Assembly: GCA_022826755.1 (NCBI GenBank)
Contig: JAJDUG010000001.1
Location: forward strand, 1 to 63,304
DNA from: Acidobacteriota bacterium
GTDB taxonomy: Bacteria; Acidobacteriota; Terriglobia; Versatilivoradales; Versatilivoraceae
Reading direction: 5' to 3'
Length of the DNA stretch: 63,304 nucleotides
How positions within the stretch are numbered: the first letter of the stretch is position 1; the number at the start of each line of letters is the position of its first letter. The notes below the pieces were generated by a model. That model was not told the origin of the DNA. It saw nothing but the letters and a program-made list of their open reading frames with translations, and searched no databases. Made by a program: the position numbers and the translations under genes. Of this stretch, positions 417-11,585 are shown piece after piece.

Positions 417-3400
417 TCAAAGGCCGATGCGCAGGCGAATCTGAATGTTGCGGGCGCCACCCAGGCGAAACTGACCGAAGGCCGGGCTGGTGATGTTGGT
501 GGAGCTGGGGCCTCCGCGGTTGGGGTGGTTCAGGATATTGCGAATGTAGGCCTCCAACTGGAAGTAGGGCCCACTCTCGCCGTAGCCGAGATGCCAGCGC
601 TTGAAGGCATTGATGTTGAGGTCCCACACGTAGAACCCTCGCATCATGCCCCGCGGCGCCGTTCCGAAGCGTCCGTTGGGAGGTACGCCGAAGCAGCCGG
701 CATTCCACTTGAATTCGGTCTCCCCGCCGACATTGGGATTGCAGCCGGGGAGCAGATCGGGACGGCCACCGGATCTGCCCACGTTGGCGGTGTCCGCACC
801 GGAGAAGGCCGGCGTGAACCGGGTTCCGTTGCGGTCCCTCCATTCCGGCGCCAGGGTCCAGCCACCGATGATGTTCTGCAAGAACCGGTTTGCGTTGGAG
901 CCGTACTTCTGGTTCTTGCCGAAGGGTAGCGGATAGACGGCCACGATCCGGGCCTGATAGGGATTGAACCCGTTCTGATGGCCCTTCTCGTTGGAGCGAT
1001 CGTAGGGATCCTCGATGAACAGACCCACCGTGGAGCCGAAAAGGCCGCCCTGGATGTCGTTCAGCGTGTTGAGCCGGGCAATCCAGCCTCTCAGGTAGAG
1101 TCCGCTGGAGAACTGACGGGTAACTTCAAACTCGAACCCGTGGTGGCTGGAGTTGCCTCCCAGGTCCAGCAGGCCCACCGTGCTGAATCCGGGGCCGAAG
1201 GGAAACTTGTCGGGACGTTCGGCAAAGGGTATGGTGCCGGGCGCCGGCCGCTGCAGGTCTCGAATGACCGGCCAGTGGGTGCCCTTGGTGCCCACGTAGG
1301 ACGTGCGCATGGCGAAACCGTGCCCCAGTTCCTGCTCGATGGTCAGGTTCCACTGCTGGTCATAGGGCCAATTGTTCTTGCGAAGGTCGGGGTCCATGCC
1401 GTAGACCAACTGTCGCCCCAAGGTGCCGGTCAGTTGCGGAAACCCTCGCAGGGTGGTGAGTTCCGCCACTCCGTCCACGATCTGGTTGGGGCCGAACTCC
1501 TCCACCAACTGGTAAGGCCCGCGGACCCGAGCCGCCAGCAGGCCGGCCCGATCGATGCCGAACCCGCCCACCGGGAAACCGGCGGCCTGGGCCGCATGGG
1601 TGGCGTAGGGAACCGAGTAGATGCCGTAGCCGGTACGGATCACCGTTCCTTCCCGGGGACGGAAAGCGATGCCGATCCGCGGATCCACCAACACGGACTT
1701 GAAGTTGATCAGCTTGTCGGGATAGCCGGCCTCGCGGGCAGTGACCACCGGGATGGGATAACCCGGGACCACCTGGCGCAAGGCTTGATCGCTGGGCACC
1801 ACCACCTGTCGGTTGGCCAGATCGAAGTTGTACCAGCGGTCGTCCTTTTCATAGGGGGTGCCGTAGTGCTGGAAGCGGACTCCCAGGTTGAGGGTCAGGT
1901 CCGGCCGGACCTTCCAGTCGTCCTGGATGAAGAAGCCGAACTCCCATTGCCGGGCCTCGGCCCGGGGGGTGATGGCCTCGATCTTGGTGGTGAAAGGCAG
2001 GCCCAGCAAGAGGTCGCCGAAGTCGTAGCCGGTGAAGTTCCCGGTGAAATCCCAGCGGCCGAACTCGTTGGTGTTTCGATCTCCCTCCTTGTGGGGAAAC
2101 TGGTGACGCAGCTCGATGCCCGTCTTGATGAGGTGGCTGCCTTTCTGGATGGAGATGGTGTCCCGTATCTGCCATACGGCGGCTTCGGTGAAGTCGATCA
2201 GCGGCGAAGTACCCAAGCCGCCCATGAGGTTGGCGGGACCCACGTTGAAGGATGCCGAGGAGGCGCCGGTTTGCCGCCCCAGGGTCCGAACCACGAAGCG
2301 GGGATTGCCGGAGCCGTTGGGCAGCAGCTTCTCGCGGCCGCCCAGGTCGGAGATGCCCAGCAGATCCAGGTACTGGCGGCCCGGAAAGTCGCCGCTTCTC
2401 CACACGCTGCGTTGACGGTTCCAGCCGAAGCTGAACTCGTTGATCACCTGCGGATTGAAGGTGTGGGCATCCTGCAGGGCGAAGGCCCGCCGGTTGTCGT
2501 CTCCGAACAGGCCCTTGCCGTTGATGAAAGGACTGCCTCCTCCTTCGTCGAACACCCAGCGCTCCCACCAGATGGTTGCGGTCACCCGATTGTCTTGGGT
2601 GATCTGGTGGTCGAAGCGCATATGGGTGGTGTCGCGCTCATTGGCGTTGGAGTCGATGAAGTCGAAGTTGTCGTAGAGTCGGTCCCTGTGGGCCAAGGGC
2701 AGTATTCCACGCGAGGGATCCAGCAGGTTGGCGGCCACCGGGCTCCATCGTTCCCTGGGGATGATGTCGTTGGGGAAGGGCTGGCCGGTGAAGGGATCCA
2801 TGATGTTGAAGTCCGGGTTCCCTTGAGTCGTCCGCTGGAACCGGGCGAATTCGGACAGGTCGCCCTGGCGCATCTTGGTGGTCGGCAGGATCCAGTTCTG
2901 ACTCAGGAAGTAGTTGACGTTGCTGGAGGGCTGGTAGTTCCAGTGAAAGAAGGTCTTGTTCCTGCCGTCGTACACGCCGGGGATGTACACCGGTCCGCTG
3001 GCCTCGTAGGAGATGCGCCGGTTGGGCCGCGAGGGCGGCCTGGGCCTGCCGTTCTGGCTCGGTTGCAGCGCATTGAGCCGGGGATGGTTGAGGTGATAGA
3101 AGATCTCCCCGTGAAACTTGTTGGTGCCTCCCCGGCCGATGGCCATCACCGTGGTTGAGGTGCGGTACTCGGCGGGGGCATTGAAGGAGGTCTGAATCAG
3201 TTCCTGGGTGGTCTCGGTATAGTCCCGACCCGACCCGCCGTAGGCGTTGGTGGCCAGACCCATGTGCTCGGTGTTGGTGTTGTTGGCATAGCTGCCGTGC
3301 ACCTGGCTGCGGGGCTCGTTGCCGGGATTGAGGCCAATGGTATAGATCAGAGCGGCGTTGGTGTTGAAACCCACCATTTCCGTCATGGCCGTGGTCTGCT

Positions 3401-3860
3401 TGATGGTGGGCGTGTCGGTGTCGATGACGTAGCCCTCTTCCTCGACGGTGATGGTGTCGGCCACCTCACCCACCTCCAGCGTGATATCGATCCGCCGGGC
3501 CTGTCCGGCGTAGACCACCAGGCCGGAGTTGACGAATTTCTTGAAGCCCGACAGTTCGACTTCCAGGGTGTAGGACCCCGGCGACAGTCCCCTCAGCTCG
3601 AAGTCTCCCACCTCGTTGGTCACGGTGCTGTTGCCCAGTCCCGTGCTTTCCGAGGTCGCGGTCACGTCTGCGCTGACCACGATCGCCCCGGTGGGATCGG
3701 TCACTCTTCCCCGAAACCCGCCATACTCCTGGGCTGTCGCCAGGGGCGCCGCCACAATGAGAGCGGCCAGGGCGGTCAGCATAACCGGCACGCCCGTCGG
3801 AGTTGACCGACTGATCCGATGGATCAACCGCAAAGCGATCCCTTCAGTTCGCAGATACAT
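417..3860 (-). CDS. Oar-like TonB-dependent outer-membrane receptor with carboxypeptidase-regulatory-like domain
   Basis: Large outer-membrane beta-barrel (about 1147 aa) expected to import an unknown ligand using TonB energy. The N-terminus has a signal peptide (hydrophobic LTALAALIVAAPLATAQ). Next comes a carboxypeptidase-regulatory-like Ig fold (GFRGRVTDPTGAIV ... GDFELRGLSPGSYTLEVELSGF), then a plug region and a long barrel rich in aromatic/Gly strands. This architecture is typical of Acidobacteriota, where many paralogues occur. The open frame extends 53 codons further upstream, but those residues look non-secretory. A GAGGAGG Shine-Dalgarno directly precedes the tandem ATGs at 3863 and 3860, and the second has the better spacing. 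No partner TonB/ExbBD or SusD-like gene is adjacent, so the substrate cannot be inferred. The final residues (RLRIGL) lack the usual terminal Phe of barrel proteins. Confidence 0.9.
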   Translation of the reverse strand: MYLRTEGIALRLIHRISRSTPTGVPVMLTALAALIVAAPLATAQEYGGFRGRVTDPTGAIVVSADVTATSESTGLGNSTVTNEVGDFELRGLSPGSYTLEVELSGFKKFVNSGLVVYAGQARRIDITLEVGEVADTITVEEEGYVIDTDTPTIKQTTAMTEMVGFNTNAALIYTIGLNPGNEPRSQVHGSYANNTNTEHMGLATNAYGGSGRDYTETTQELIQTSFNAPAEYRTSTTVMAIGRGGTNKFHGEIFYHLNHPRLNALQPSQNGRPRPPSRPNRRISYEASGPVYIPGVYDGRNKTFFHWNYQPSSNVNYFLSQNWILPTTKMRQGDLSEFARFQRTTQGNPDFNIMDPFTGQPFPNDIIPRERWSPVAANLLDPSRGILPLAHRDRLYDNFDFIDSNANERDTTHMRFDHQITQDNRVTATIWWERWVFDEGGGSPFINGKGLFGDDNRRAFALQDAHTFNPQVINEFSFGWNRQRSVWRSGDFPGRQYLDLLGISDLGGREKLLPNGSGNPRFVVRTLGRQTGASSASFNVGPANLMGGLGTSPLIDFTEAAVWQIRDTISIQKGSHLIKTGIELRHQFPHKEGDRNTNEFGRWDFTGNFTGYDFGDLLLGLPFTTKIEAITPRAEARQWEFGFFIQDDWKVRPDLTLNLGVRFQHYGTPYEKDDRWYNFDLANRQVVVPSDQALRQVVPGYPIPVVTAREAGYPDKLINFKSVLVDPRIGIAFRPREGTVIRTGYGIYSVPYATHAAQAAGFPVGGFGIDRAGLLAARVRGPYQLVEEFGPNQIVDGVAELTTLRGFPQLTGTLGRQLVYGMDPDLRKNNWPYDQQWNLTIEQELGHGFAMRTSYVGTKGTHWPVIRDLQRPAPGTIPFAERPDKFPFGPGFSTVGLLDLGGNSSHHGFEFEVTRQFSSGLYLRGWIARLNTLNDIQGGLFGSTVGLFIEDPYDRSNEKGHQNGFNPYQARIVAVYPLPFGKNQKYGSNANRFLQNIIGGWTLAPEWRDRNGTRFTPAFSGADTANVGRSGGRPDLLPGCNPNVGGETEFKWNAGCFGVPPNGRFGTAPRGMMRGFYVWDLNINAFKRWHLGYGESGPYFQLEAYIRNILNHPNRGGPSSTNITSPAFGQFRLGGARNIQIRLRIGL

Positions 3861-4298
3861 CATCCCTCCTCGCGCAGTTCGGCCTGCTCTGCGGCATAGA
3901 TGGACCACCAGCTCCAGGATCTTTAGGAACCTGCAGTCAACAGCGAAAATATTTTGAATTGGATACTCAAAAACAGTATAGGAACGCACTTTTCCAATGT
4001 AAAGAACAAAAAAACACAAGGGATCTACTCATTGCAACCTGGTGCCGTCTCCGGACAAAGGAGGGCTCAGCGCCGCCTGGAAAGTGTGTTGGAAGTGTGC
4101 TCGGCGCCAAGTCGAGGGGCGAAGCTGACGGCAGCGGGCAGGCGGGGGCTTCCGCGCGAGGAGTCGCTTGAGAGTGGTTGTGACCTGCAGAACGGCACTA
4201 CTCATCCGCCGGCTGCGCGGCTGCGGCATTGGGGGGGGCGACGCGGTACCGGTTATGCGTGCGGCGGCGACCAGCCATTGCTCCGCGACAGGGAGGAG
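3861..4298. other. Intergenic region upstream of the TonB receptor
   Basis: 438 bases between the receptor start and the slipin stop. It carries the receptor's ribosome-binding site and a good sigma-70 promoter (3975-4003, minus strand). The part from about 4030 to 4298 is GC-rich; small open frames there on both strands lack start signals or recognisable protein features. I see no hairpin with a T run for slipin termination. Confidence 0.5.
3975..4003 (-). promoter_or_regulatory. Probable sigma-70 promoter of the TonB receptor
   Basis: On the minus strand TTTACA (4003-3998), a 17-base spacer and TATACT (3980-3975) each match the sigma-70 consensus at five of six positions. Predicted transcription starts near 3968, about 105 bases upstream of the chosen ATG, in an AT-rich island inside otherwise GC-rich DNA. 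Nothing operator-like was recognised. Confidence 0.6.
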
Positions 4299-8060: not shown

Positions 8061-8079
8061 GATTGAAGATTGAAGATTT

Positions 8080-8142
8080 TTGATTTCAGGCAGTTTCGAT
8101 TGGCGAAACTACCCCAATCAACAATCAGAAATCTGAAATCAA
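8080..8142. repeat. Nested inverted repeat in the SBP leader
   Basis: TTGATTTCAG (8080-8089) is the exact inverse of CTGAAATCAA (8133-8142). Inside it AGTTTCG (8092-8098) pairs with CGAAACT (8104-8110). The flanks are AT-rich iterations of GATTGAAGATT and AATCAACAATC. The element ends 24 bases before the SBP start codon, so folding would place it just ahead of the ribosome-binding site. Confidence 0.5.
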
Positions 8143-8166
8143 CAATTCATTCGCGAGGTGTTTGCC

Positions 8167-9510
8167 ATGGGGCGGATGACGAGACGGGAGTTGCTGGGCT
8201 CCGGTATTGGCGGATTCATGGCCCTGCCATGGCTTTCCTGTCTGAACGCTGGGGCGCAACCGGTCGACCCGACTGACGAAAGGAGGAAACAAGACATGAA
8301 CGGAGAACCCAATCCCGATGGGCGTACCGAGCAGACCGGGGTCACCGATGCCGAGATTGTTCTTGGTGTATCGGCGGCATTCTCCGGTCCTTCACGCGGT
8401 CTCGGCATTGAGCTTTACCGAGGCGCCAATGCCTATTTCGAGCACGTTAACCGAGCCGGCGGCATCCGAGGCCGCAGGGTCGTACTCAAGACCTATGACG
8501 ACGGCTACCAGCCGAACCCGGCAGTCACCAACACCATGACCCTGGTGCAGCAGGATCAGGTATTCGCCCTGTTCGGCTACGTCGGCACGCCTACCGTCAC
8601 GCGTGTTCTTCCCATGCTCAAGAAGTTCCAGGGAAAAAACGCCTACCTGTTCTTTCCGTTCACGGGCGCCCAACCCCAGAGGGAACCGCCTTACGGGGAT
8701 TTCGCCTTCAACCTTCGCGCCTCCTATCGCCAGGAAACGGCTGGCCTGGTCGACAATTTCGTCTCGATCGGCAACAAGCGCATCGCCGTGTTCTATCAGG
8801 CCGATGCCTATGGCCGCAGCGGCTGGGCCGGCGTGCGGCTGGCGATGAGTCGACATGGTTTGCAGATCGTCGGGGAAGCGACCTATCGCCGGGGAGCAAG
8901 ATTTTCCGGCAGTATGCGACGCCAGGTAGAGATACTGCAGCAGTCCAATCCGAGCGCGGTCATCTGTATCGGCTCCTATGCCGCCTGCGCGGCCTTCCTG
9001 CGTGACGCTGTCGACCTCGGTCTGGAAGTTCCGATCGCCAACCTCTCCTTTGTCGGGAGCGAGAACCTGCTGAAGCTGATTACGGAGGGTCGGGAGGACA
9101 GCCGGAGCTACACCAATCTGCTGGTGAATTCTCAAGTCGTCCCCAGTTACGAGGACACGTCCATCCCGGCGGTCAAGCAGTATCGGGAGATGATGGATCG
9201 GTATGATCCTCAACCTCCGTCCCACGTGCTCAAGGAAGACTACACGTCGTTCTCCTACAGCTTTGTCAGCCTGGAGGGATTTCTCAACGCCAAGCTGATG
9301 GTCGAGATCCTTCGGCGCCTAGGCCATCAACCCGACCGGGACAAGCTCGAGGATGCGGTCTTTACCATCAGAAACTTCGACATCGGCATCGATGAGCGAG
9401 TTTCCTTCGGCCCCGACCGGCGCCAGGGGCTGCAACAGGTCTACTACACCGTTGTCGAATCGGGTCGCTTCGTTACCCTGAAGAGCTGGGAGGACAGGTT
9501 TGCGTCATGA
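8167..9510 (+). CDS. ABC-type substrate-binding protein, type 1 periplasmic fold (LivJ/amide-urea-like)
   Basis: 447-residue exported binding protein of the branched-chain-amino-acid type (Peripla_BP_6). The N-terminus is Tat-like (MTRRELLGSG ... FMALPWLSC). The first lobe has ILGVSAAFSGPSRGLG-type ligand-loop residues, then FEHVNRAGGIRGRRVVL and the hinge segment FALFGYVGTPTV; the second lobe follows from YRRGARFSG. ATG 8167 is preferred over the GTG at 8158 because GAGG sits 8 bases ahead. The stop overlaps the next ATG (ATGA). No ABC permease or ATPase is nearby; the neighbours are a HAMP-domain sensor and an MFS carrier. The protein may therefore serve as a ligand-presenting sensor partner rather than a uptake subunit. 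Ligand unknown. Confidence 0.85.
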   Translation: MGRMTRRELLGSGIGGFMALPWLSCLNAGAQPVDPTDERRKQDMNGEPNPDGRTEQTGVTDAEIVLGVSAAFSGPSRGLGIELYRGANAYFEHVNRAGGIRGRRVVLKTYDDGYQPNPAVTNTMTLVQQDQVFALFGYVGTPTVTRVLPMLKKFQGKNAYLFFPFTGAQPQREPPYGDFAFNLRASYRQETAGLVDNFVSIGNKRIAVFYQADAYGRSGWAGVRLAMSRHGLQIVGEATYRRGARFSGSMRRQVEILQQSNPSAVICIGSYAACAAFLRDAVDLGLEVPIANLSFVGSENLLKLITEGREDSRSYTNLLVNSQVVPSYEDTSIPAVKQYREMMDRYDPQPPSHVLKEDYTSFSYSFVSLEGFLNAKLMVEILRRLGHQPDRDKLEDAVFTIRNFDIGIDERVSFGPDRRQGLQQVYYTVVESGRFVTLKSWEDRFAS

Positions 9511-10247
9511 AGATTCAGAAGCTGTTTCAGAAGACCCTGGTCGGCATCTTCTTCCTGTTTGCGGTGATCAGTCTCTCGACCTCCGCCCTGTGCATCTATA
9601 CGGTCGATACCCACCTGTCCGCCGAGTACGAGAGCAATAGCCGGGGGATCGCAAAGACGATCTCAGATTCCAGCGTCGACATCCTGCTGAACCGCGACTT
9701 GTCCGCCCTGCAGTCCCTGATCGACCAGTTCATCGAAATCCAGGGAATCAGCTACATCTACATCACCAGCGAACACGGCGAGTTTCTTGCCCACACGTTC
9801 GTTCCCGGAATTCCCACTGAAATCGCCCGGAGCGATCATTCCTCCAGGGCGACAGTCGAGCGCAGTCTCCCTGGAATGGGCGACTTCGTCGAGGTGAGCA
9901 GCCCGATCCTTGCCGGTGTCGCCGGAGCCGTGCATATCGGAATGGATACGGGACTGATCGCGCTGAAGATTCAACGGGCGGTCGGACAACAGGTTTACCT
10001 GATCTCCTCCATCTTCATCATCGGCGTCTTTTCCGCCATCTGGCTGGTCAGGCTTGCCGCGAAACCGATCGACTCGGTGATTGCCTATGCCGCAAGACTG
10101 GCACGGGAGCGCAACAAGGACAGCTCGGACGACAAGCTGCTGGCCCGCGACGACGAGGTCGGACAACTGGCTCGCCTGTTTCTCCATTTCTCGACGGTCA
10201 TGGATTTCGACAAGGCACGAGGCACTCCGCCTGGGGAGAATGCCTGA
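9507..10247 (+). CDS. Membrane sensor with periplasmic Cache-like domain and HAMP, no output domain
   Basis: 246 residues. TM1 is about 11-33 and TM2 about 163-184. The periplasmic loop (35-160) looks like a Cache/PAS-type sensor fold (ISYIYITSEHGEFLAHTF, later GAVHIGMDTGL). A HAMP domain follows (184-236: conserved Pro in AKPIDSV, then DDEVGQLARLF). The chain stops ten residues after HAMP, with no kinase, cyclase or methyl-accepting region, and the next gene is in another frame and unrelated. It shares an ATGA junction with the binding-protein gene, implying coupled translation. It looks like the input half of a sensor kinase. Either the output half was lost, or the protein works by contacting another partner. 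Confidence 0.8.
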   Translation: MKIQKLFQKTLVGIFFLFAVISLSTSALCIYTVDTHLSAEYESNSRGIAKTISDSSVDILLNRDLSALQSLIDQFIEIQGISYIYITSEHGEFLAHTFVPGIPTEIARSDHSSRATVERSLPGMGDFVEVSSPILAGVAGAVHIGMDTGLIALKIQRAVGQQVYLISSIFIIGVFSAIWLVRLAAKPIDSVIAYAARLARERNKDSSDDKLLARDDEVGQLARLFLHFSTVMDFDKARGTPPGENA

Positions 10248-10262
10248 TCGGAGGCAGTGAGG

Positions 10263-11585
10263 ATGGCCCTCCCGCGTGTCGTACTCCCACGCACGGTCAC
10301 GGTCCTGCTCTGCACGCTGCTGCAAACCTGTTTCGGGACGGTGTACGCTTGGAGTTTTTTCCAGACGCTTCTGGTGCAGGACTACGGCTGGACCTTTACC
10401 CATACCGCCATCGCTTTCAGCGTCGTCATCTTCACGCTGGGGATTTCAGCCGCCTGGGCAGGCATGGTTCTGCCCAAAACCGGACCCCGACTGTTGGCGA
10501 CGGCCGGCAGCCTGCTGTTTTCGTTGGGCTATTTTGTCGGCGGACTGGCCCTGGACCTGGACAACCTGCTCCTGTTCTACCTGGGTTACGGAGTGATCGG
10601 GGGGGCAGGGATCGGGCTTGGCTATGTCACTCCGGTCGCGACGACGGCGAAATGGTTTCCGGACCGCAAGGGGCTGGCAACCGGAATCGTGGTCATGGGC
10701 TTCGGCATCGGAGCCTTTCTGCTCAGCAAGGTGCTGGCGCCCGGTCTCATGCTCTATTTCACCGGAGGCAACCTGGCGCTCCTTTTCTATTGGCTCGGCG
10801 CCATATTCGCCTGCATCCTGATTCCGTCCAGCCTTCTGCTCTCCGATCCGCCCGCCCCTGCGGTCCCCAGCCCCGCGAGCGCCGCGGGAGGCGGCGCCGT
10901 TGGGGAGTCGGAATCGATCGGGAGCTGCCTGCTCTCGTCCCGGTTCATAGTCATGTGGCTGGTCTTCTTCTTCAACATCTCCGCGGGGATCTCGGTGATC
11001 AGCTTCCAGTCTCCGCTGCTGCAGGATGTGTGGGGATTGTCGGATCCTACGATCGAGCCTGCCACGCTGGTTGCCTACGGCGCCACCTTGATCGCCGTCA
11101 GCTCGCTGTGCAACGGAGCAGGACGATTGTTCTGGGGGCTGCTGTCCGATCGCATCGGCCGTATCCGGGTGTTCCGCATCATTCTCGCCAGCCAGATGGT
11201 GGTCTTCGGCATACTCATGACCGAGCGCAACCCCTGGGTCTTCTCGGTGCTCGTCTGCTACATCCTGCTCTGCTTCGGAGGAGGCTTCGCCACCATGCCT
11301 TCCTTCATTCTGGATGTTTTCGGGGCCAAGCGAATGTCGGCCATCTACGGGACCATCCTGACAGCCTGGGCGGCGGCGGGGATCTTCGGGCCGCTCTATG
11401 TCGGCCACCTCAAGGACAGATATCCCGATCGCGCCGTCATCTATTGCTTCCTGATCGGGGTTGTGATTCTCTGCTTCGGATACATATTCTCCTATTTGTT
11501 GAACGACGAGAGAATCCGCCTCCGCCGGCCGACAGTGACGGATACGTTGCAGCAGCTCAAGATCCCCTTGCCCCAGAGAAATTGA
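10263..11585 (+). CDS. MFS transporter, OFA (oxalate/formate antiporter) type
   Basis: 440-residue, 12-helix inner-membrane carrier. Family signals are the N-terminal GTVYAWSFF, the motif-A-like GLSDRIGR equivalent (LLSDRIGRIRVFR) between TM8 and TM9, and Gly-rich GVIGGAGIGLGYVTPV. OFA proteins exchange or take up small carboxylates (oxalate/formate, also pyruvate or lactate relatives). ATG 10263 is chosen over the in-frame GTG 10257 because CGGAGG lies 8 bases before it. It begins 15 bases after the HAMP gene, so the three genes are probably one transcript; the carrier may handle the ligand sensed by the upstream pair. The stop is only 10 bases from the convergent rpoD stop, with no terminator between. 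Confidence 0.85.
   Translation: MALPRVVLPRTVTVLLCTLLQTCFGTVYAWSFFQTLLVQDYGWTFTHTAIAFSVVIFTLGISAAWAGMVLPKTGPRLLATAGSLLFSLGYFVGGLALDLDNLLLFYLGYGVIGGAGIGLGYVTPVATTAKWFPDRKGLATGIVVMGFGIGAFLLSKVLAPGLMLYFTGGNLALLFYWLGAIFACILIPSSLLLSDPPAPAVPSPASAAGGGAVGESESIGSCLLSSRFIVMWLVFFFNISAGISVISFQSPLLQDVWGLSDPTIEPATLVAYGATLIAVSSLCNGAGRLFWGLLSDRIGRIRVFRIILASQMVVFGILMTERNPWVFSVLVCYILLCFGGGFATMPSFILDVFGAKRMSAIYGTILTAWAAAGIFGPLYVGHLKDRYPDRAVIYCFLIGVVILCFGYIFSYLLNDERIRLRRPTVTDTLQQLKIPLPQRN

Follow-up and report, generated by a model that had tools for sequence, protein, structure and literature searches.

To our knowledge, only two classes of secondary transporter depend on a solute-binding protein (SBP): TRAP (DctPQM) and TTT (TctCBA). 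Both combine an SBP with a small membrane protein and a large secondary carrier, and neither uses an ATPase. The same general plan is found in a three-gene cassette located on a 63,304-nucleotide stretch (hereafter, the window) of contig JAJDUG010000001.1 from an Acidobacteriota bacterium (assembly GCA_022826755.1), which encodes an SBP (SBP1), a short membrane sensor, and a carrier of the major facilitator superfamily (MFS). However, the components belong to other families: the SBP is of type I (Peripla_BP_6) and not of the type II DctP/TctC family, the small protein is an sCache-HAMP protein instead of DctQ/TctB, and the carrier is an MFS (OFA) protein instead of DctM/TctA. Judged by sequence, the cassette is not a member of TRAP or TTT, but would be analogous to them in its way of working. 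We propose, with a probability of about one half, that the trio would form a tripartite SBP-dependent MFS uptake complex for a small organic anion, in which the short protein would serve as docking or gating subunit. The evidence is genetic, and consists of a conserved unit, constant gene lengths, selection, additions to the carrier, co-occurrence with a second operon, and a tree at odds with phylum boundaries; from it we infer the complex, the docking, the gating or coupling, the anion substrate, and the shared ligand.

Other described systems also share features with the cassette. DctA–DcuS and UhpC–UhpB are known transporter–sensor pairs (PMC5703999), and both DcuS/CitA with DctA/DcuB and UhpB–UhpC resemble the cassette in this partnership, with a CitA-type Cache sensor domain beside a carrier. 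However, the cassette sensor has no PAS or kinase domains, and the cassette includes an SBP as well. In contrast to ABC uptake systems (Liv/HAAT), there are no adjacent permease and ATPase genes, as a previous reading of this DNA (the sequence-only reading) had stated: none was found beside the cassette in the window or among the neighbors common to the loci compared. In the open-access literature, we found no paper describing an arrangement of SBP, output-less HAMP sensor, and MFS carrier, nor output-less HAMP sensors as such, although such a negative is weak evidence; in a review of multicomponent transporters, the MFS appears solely in the reference list (PMC8276074). If the proposal is true, the design would be new, with a HAMP protein as subunit of an SBP-linked MFS carrier, and HAMP domains would gain a role without kinase, cyclase, or chemotaxis output. 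More generally, the data suggest that the cassette is a new type of uptake machine rather than a broken sensor gene.

The first argument for a functional unit is its conservation. When one genome per species and 396 Acidobacteriota genomes were scanned, about 60 distinct loci remained after removal of duplicates, in which SBP, sensor, and carrier genes follow each other in identical order and strand with 57–98% identity; order and strand are held in every locus, and the cut-off cases are contig ends. The SBP–sensor distance is -4 to +4 nt in most loci (start/stop overlap or about 1 nt), and the sensor–carrier distance is mostly 6–43 nt. Such agreement in order, strand, length, and spacing goes well beyond chance. 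Across phyla, identity is 57–74% over the alignment, and a divergent Gammaproteobacterium (L131) carries the identical trio at 51, 47, and 56% identity for SBP, sensor, and carrier, respectively. Within the genus, six of seven genomes have the sensor at the same place (94–98% identical); the seventh, G005, appeared to be without the cassette, but its contig stops 292 bases past the upstream gene. For SBP, sensor, and carrier, within-genus pairwise dN/dS is 0.11, 0.10, and 0.09, respectively, a sign of strong purifying selection on the whole trio. The sequence-only reading had suggested a functional three-gene unit, to be checked by order and length across genera; the order is indeed kept, with a sensor of about 245 residues, across genera and phyla.

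No neighbor other than the trio is common across phyla in the loci compared, the surroundings varying by lineage. Aminotransferase, Glu-synthase-like, acyl-CoA dehydrogenase, and alcohol-dehydrogenase-like genes were considered as clues to the substrate, but they are lineage-specific and uninformative. A porin-like gene lies directly upstream of the cassette in four loci (L092, 5438–6553; L094; L097; L099), called by eye and without Pfam match, and is in keeping with an uptake role. The features of the cassette in the window are collected in Table 1. The layout reported in the sequence-only reading agrees with the coordinates: the sensor start overlaps the SBP stop in an ATGA at 9507–9510, and the carrier ATG at 10263 lies 15 bases past the sensor stop, with an in-frame GTG at 10257 as alternative. 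The ATG start of the SBP gene likewise has an alternative, a GTG at 8158. What that reading had missed is the CitA/DcuS-type Cache domain, the twin-arginine-type signal of the SBP, and the companion operon described below.

Table 1. Coordinates of the cassette and its features in the window.
Feature	Position	Strand	Description
SBP1	8167..9510	+	type I SBP, Peripla_BP_6 (Pfam, E 6e-44), 447 aa
Short membrane sensor	9507..10247	+	TM – sCache_3_2 – TM – HAMP – stop (Pfam), 246 aa, without output domain
Sensor sCache_3_2 domain	9609..9971	+	residues 35–155; best-conserved part of the sensor
Sensor TM2 end and HAMP region	10041..10199	+	residues 179–231
OFA/MCT-type MFS carrier	10263..11585	+	440 aa; MFS_1, E 1.5e-30
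Carrier TM7–TM8 loop insertion	11037..11063	+	cassette-specific, 9 residues; E265 and P266 invariant
Carrier C-terminal tail	11508..11582	+	cassette-specific, RIRLxRPTxxxTLxxxxIP; from conservation and comparison with stand-alone OFA carriers
TM, transmembrane helix; aa, amino acids.

Between its two TM helices, the short sensor contains one CitA/DcuS-type Cache domain (sCache_3_2, PF17203, E 8e-12). A weak HAMP match follows at residues 179–229 (18.3 bits; Pfam cut-off 25). Only 17 residues separate the end of this match from the stop, in line with the sequence-only reading, and HisKA/HATPase output is absent. The AlphaFold2 model, which is moderately reliable (pLDDT 70, pTM 0.46), shows a long TM1 helix and a Cache sheet, then TM2 followed by an interrupted pair of HAMP helices; with this model, the top Foldseek matches included the CitA periplasmic domain (2j80, E 3e-4) and WalK. 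A PDB sequence search with the sensor gave no credible match, and the sole match in a plasmid search was a Deinococcus chemoreceptor (27%). The sensor measures 243–250 residues in 62 of 64 gene models. A 356-residue sensor (L100) was rejected as an extended version because its reading frame continues across an assembly gap of N, and a 231-residue one (L104) is best explained by choice of start site. In pairwise comparisons within the genus, dN/dS is 0.00–0.09 through the end of HAMP (0.09 for residues 183–231) and 0.57 over the last 15 residues; this low value through HAMP, together with the conserved stop position, argues that the sensor is selected to end after HAMP. In a separate observation, at L134 (5675–9229), a distant full-length relative of the short sensor, an sCache-HAMP-PAS-kinase gene, is directly preceded by the end of a phosphonate-type SBP gene.

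The carrier is the only OFA-like carrier found in the genome of the window at a threshold of E 1e-15. Its best NCBIfam model is the L-lactate carrier SfMCT (NF049980, 315.6 bits against a cut-off of 320), and TIGR00890 (OFA) gives 174 bits against a cut-off of 374.85; by these scores, it is clearly homologous to OFA/SfMCT carriers (OxlT; SfMCT; PDB 6g9x, 8hpj) but not an equivalog. It shares with them the TM8 arginine, R288, which is kept in 56 of 56 cassette carriers at what we take to be the position of the substrate arginine of SfMCT (R280) and OxlT (R272). At the OxlT Lys position, all cassette carriers have W369, and the two residues together point to a monocarboxylate-like carrier. In contrast, three features set the cassette carriers apart from 24 stand-alone OFA homologs taken from related genomes: the TM7–TM8 insertion (20 of 20 aligned cassette carriers) is absent or shorter in the homologs, the C-terminal tail motif is absent, and residue 338, Phe in the cassette, is Tyr in all 24. 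With the standard MFS topology, the TM7–TM8 loop is presumably periplasmic and the tail cytoplasmic. The additions, one per face, would therefore sit where the SBP/sCache and the HAMP would be, which is consistent with coupling. Distances between sensors and distances between carriers show the highest correlation of the gene pairs (Spearman 0.79, and 0.73 between taxonomic groups), as would be expected of physical partners, although adjacent genes correlate anyway.

SBP1 was modeled with a pLDDT of 80 as a type I, Leu/Ile/Val-type fold, with 4kv7 (Rhodopirellula) as top PDB match. Most cassette SBPs bear a twin-arginine-type signal at the N-terminus, in which T5 and R6 are nearly invariant. 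A paralog with 34% identity, SBP2, is encoded in the companion operon. Around 84 conserved residues are common to both, including DDGYxP, GTPT, FTGA, RASYxQE, and SFxG, motifs that would be expected in the ligand cleft of a type I SBP, and these shared residues make a common ligand plausible. Two further observations concern SBP genes. At L069 (7630–8004), a 124-residue open reading frame between SBP and sensor consists of a degenerate SBP start and end, a collapsed tandem duplicate. In addition, a third group of SBP paralogs lies beside Band 7 (HflK/HflC-like) genes, without ABC genes (L033, 6766–7956; L069, 2647–3870; L070, 10706–12181); those of L033 and L069 also adjoin a small membrane protein and an RND pump.

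According to the proposed mechanism, the SBP would be exported, probably via Tat, and would capture its ligand in the periplasm. The loaded SBP would then dock onto the sCache domain of the two-TM HAMP protein, probably a dimer, which would stand beside the OFA-type carrier and relay to it either the SBP-loaded signal or the ligand. The TM7–TM8 loop of the carrier may contact the SBP or sCache, and its C-terminal tail may contact the HAMP bundle, which would open or arm the carrier. The companion operon would probably sense the same compound and tune the cell through partner switching. Several points weigh against such an uptake complex. We know of no SBP-dependent MFS carrier, and joint expression of operon neighbors often involves no complex. 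Within the sensor, HAMP is less conserved than any other domain, the tail excepted. A signaling role would also come naturally to an sCache-HAMP protein, given its descent from sensors: the closest non-cassette relatives of the short sensor are full kinases or chemoreceptors.

The companion operon of the window's genome has the order STAS, response regulator/SpoIIE, RsbW-type kinase, SBP2, and HAMP kinase. SpoIIE (PF07228), STAS (PF01740), and HATPase_c_2 (PF13581) occur together in it, as in Rsb-type partner switching: it shares with RsbU–RsbV–RsbW the STAS protein, the response regulator–SpoIIE phosphatase, and the HATPase_c_2 kinase, but is joined to SBP2 and a TorS-like kinase and stands apart from the cassette. 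The sensor region of this kinase matches the TorS_sensor_domain (PF21689) with an E value of 9e-5 and 22.6 bits, under the cut-off of 27. The type I periplasmic binding protein beside a membrane sensor may thus recall TorT–TorS(–TorR), a likeness that would belong to the companion operon and not to the cassette and that has SpoIIE/STAS partner switching as its output. The gene order could be followed in 36 genomes, partly overlapping the 37 cassette genomes mentioned below, some loci being cut by contig ends or without one member, and SBP2 adjoins the kinase in every genome with a readable region. In the window's own genome, a porin-like gene of the alginate-export family follows the companion kinase (L030, 10621–12138).

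The operon also bears on the strongest rival explanation, namely that the trio is a transporter-coupled receptor complex signaling to a kinase in trans, for which the companion TorS-like kinase is the likeliest candidate; the short sensor would pair with or modulate this kinase, and the carrier would report flux. The sequence-only reading had found no kinase, which holds for the cassette itself; nearly every genome with the cassette, however, encodes a TorS-like kinase and a paralogous SBP in another operon, so that a link to a kinase in trans may exist. Scored by its kinase, the companion operon is present in 34 of 37 cassette genomes. Among the 396 Acidobacteriota genomes, 17 have both cassette and kinase, two the cassette only, and one the kinase only (18 with kinase in total); among 369 Gammaproteobacteria genomes, the kinase occurs in two, one of them a cassette carrier. 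The co-occurrence gives a Fisher p of 1e-26 by genome and of 3e-6 across 211 genera (three with both, one with the cassette only, none with the kinase only), although relatives are not independent. At L068, the cassette directly follows response regulator/SpoIIE, SBP2, and kinase. Ahead of SBP1 in two further loci (L080, 6360–6737; L082, 115–729), a degenerate remnant of a TorS-like kinase ATPase overlaps the SBP1 start, with another kinase match elsewhere in both genomes. The CitA-like sCache domain and the transporter–sensor pairs cited above count in the same direction, and such an output comes naturally to a sensor whose nearest full-length relatives are kinases, one of them, at L134, with a phosphonate-type SBP gene directly before it.

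Nevertheless, we consider this possibility less likely than the uptake complex. The companion operon carries its own SBP beside its kinase, and the two operons are usually unlinked. One genome (G187) has a cassette without kinase match and two (G442, G658) have a kinase without cassette; moreover, shared habitat alone may explain the co-occurrence. Cassette and companion-operon phylogenies agree weakly between groups (0.05–0.25), which suggests that the two were mostly acquired separately, in repeated pairing, and leaves co-transfer unsupported. A kinase in trans and the tripartite transporter are, in any case, mutually compatible.

A still less probable alternative is that the short protein is only a gate or brake, passing the signal of the loaded SBP to the carrier without any hand-over of ligand, which is the form given in the sequence-only reading. 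HAMP is by nature a conformational relay, the carrier tail is conserved in cassette members only, and sensor–carrier distances correlate best, all of which would suit a gate; however, gating and hand-over look the same in sequence data. That the genes are ordinary co-expressed neighbors, a stand-alone lactate-like carrier next to an orphan SBP/sensor pair, would agree with a carrier still recognizable as an OFA/SfMCT relative, but is very improbable given the strict association of the trio across phyla, although every other neighbor changes, and the confinement of the carrier additions to the cassette. Finally, decay of a sensor-kinase operon, which would have cost the HAMP gene its kinase part and left the trio as remains, was the alternative raised in the sequence-only reading and can be practically dismissed: distant full-length homologs (L134, L136) do run on into PAS and kinase domains, but about 60 distinct loci share the end point, with a sensor dN/dS of 0.10, cross-phylum identity of 57–74%, and the same trio in L131 at 47%. 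The outcome named in the sequence-only reading as its refutation, homologs that invariably run on into kinase domains and a lone truncation here, is likewise contradicted.

The cassette is rare outside the bins described here: it was found in 19 of 396 Acidobacteriota genomes and in two of 369 Gammaproteobacteria genomes. The bins that have it are labeled Acidobacteriota, Alpha- and Gammaproteobacteria, Binatota, Gemmatimonadota, and Latescibacterota. Going by bin codes, those with a recognizable origin appear to come from sponge or coral, while some carriers have no known source. The codes RHO, COS, CAR, and APA seem to match sponge species of PMC8163846, and another bin bears the name Spongia. 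The Caribbean Ircinia set of PMC9531527 seems to be the source of jk18x and p16x, and Porites lutea that of Plut, although none of the codes themselves turned up in papers. In a tree of the concatenated cassette, the acidobacterial families f1, f28, f55, and f23 fall apart, most of them beside other phyla, and since acidobacterial copies occupy several separate places, the cassette was probably transferred between phyla. Close cassettes under differing phylum labels (L074, L086, L097, and others) involve Desulfurellaceae/Binatia, Gemmatimonadota/Latescibacterota, and Aminicenantes/Acidobacteriota; submitter labels are unreliable, and the Latescibacterota–Gemmatimonadota mixing in the tree may be mislabeling.

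In sponge symbionts, host-enriched genes are reported to move between lineages (PMC8163846). Given that most of the bins sharing the cassette across phyla are sponge-associated, the ligand could be a metabolite of the host, contested by many symbionts. A wider claim, which we hold more tentatively than the uptake complex itself, is that a type I SBP, an output-less sCache-HAMP coupler, and an MFS carrier would constitute a third class of SBP-dependent secondary transporter, spread between phyla in animal-associated marine bacteria and accompanied by an SBP/kinase/partner-switching operon dedicated to sensing the same compound.

In the window, the cassette is surrounded by Band_7, Glu dehydrogenase, AIRS-type, sigma-70, RtcB, and FAD oxidoreductase genes. 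On the opposite strand, at 417–4019, a large open reading frame with a carboxypeptidase-regulatory-like start resembles a TonB receptor, a call made by eye. Just upstream of the SBP start, at 8076–8146, a 14-nt inverted repeat with a 43-nt loop and a 10-nt direct repeat form a possible operator.

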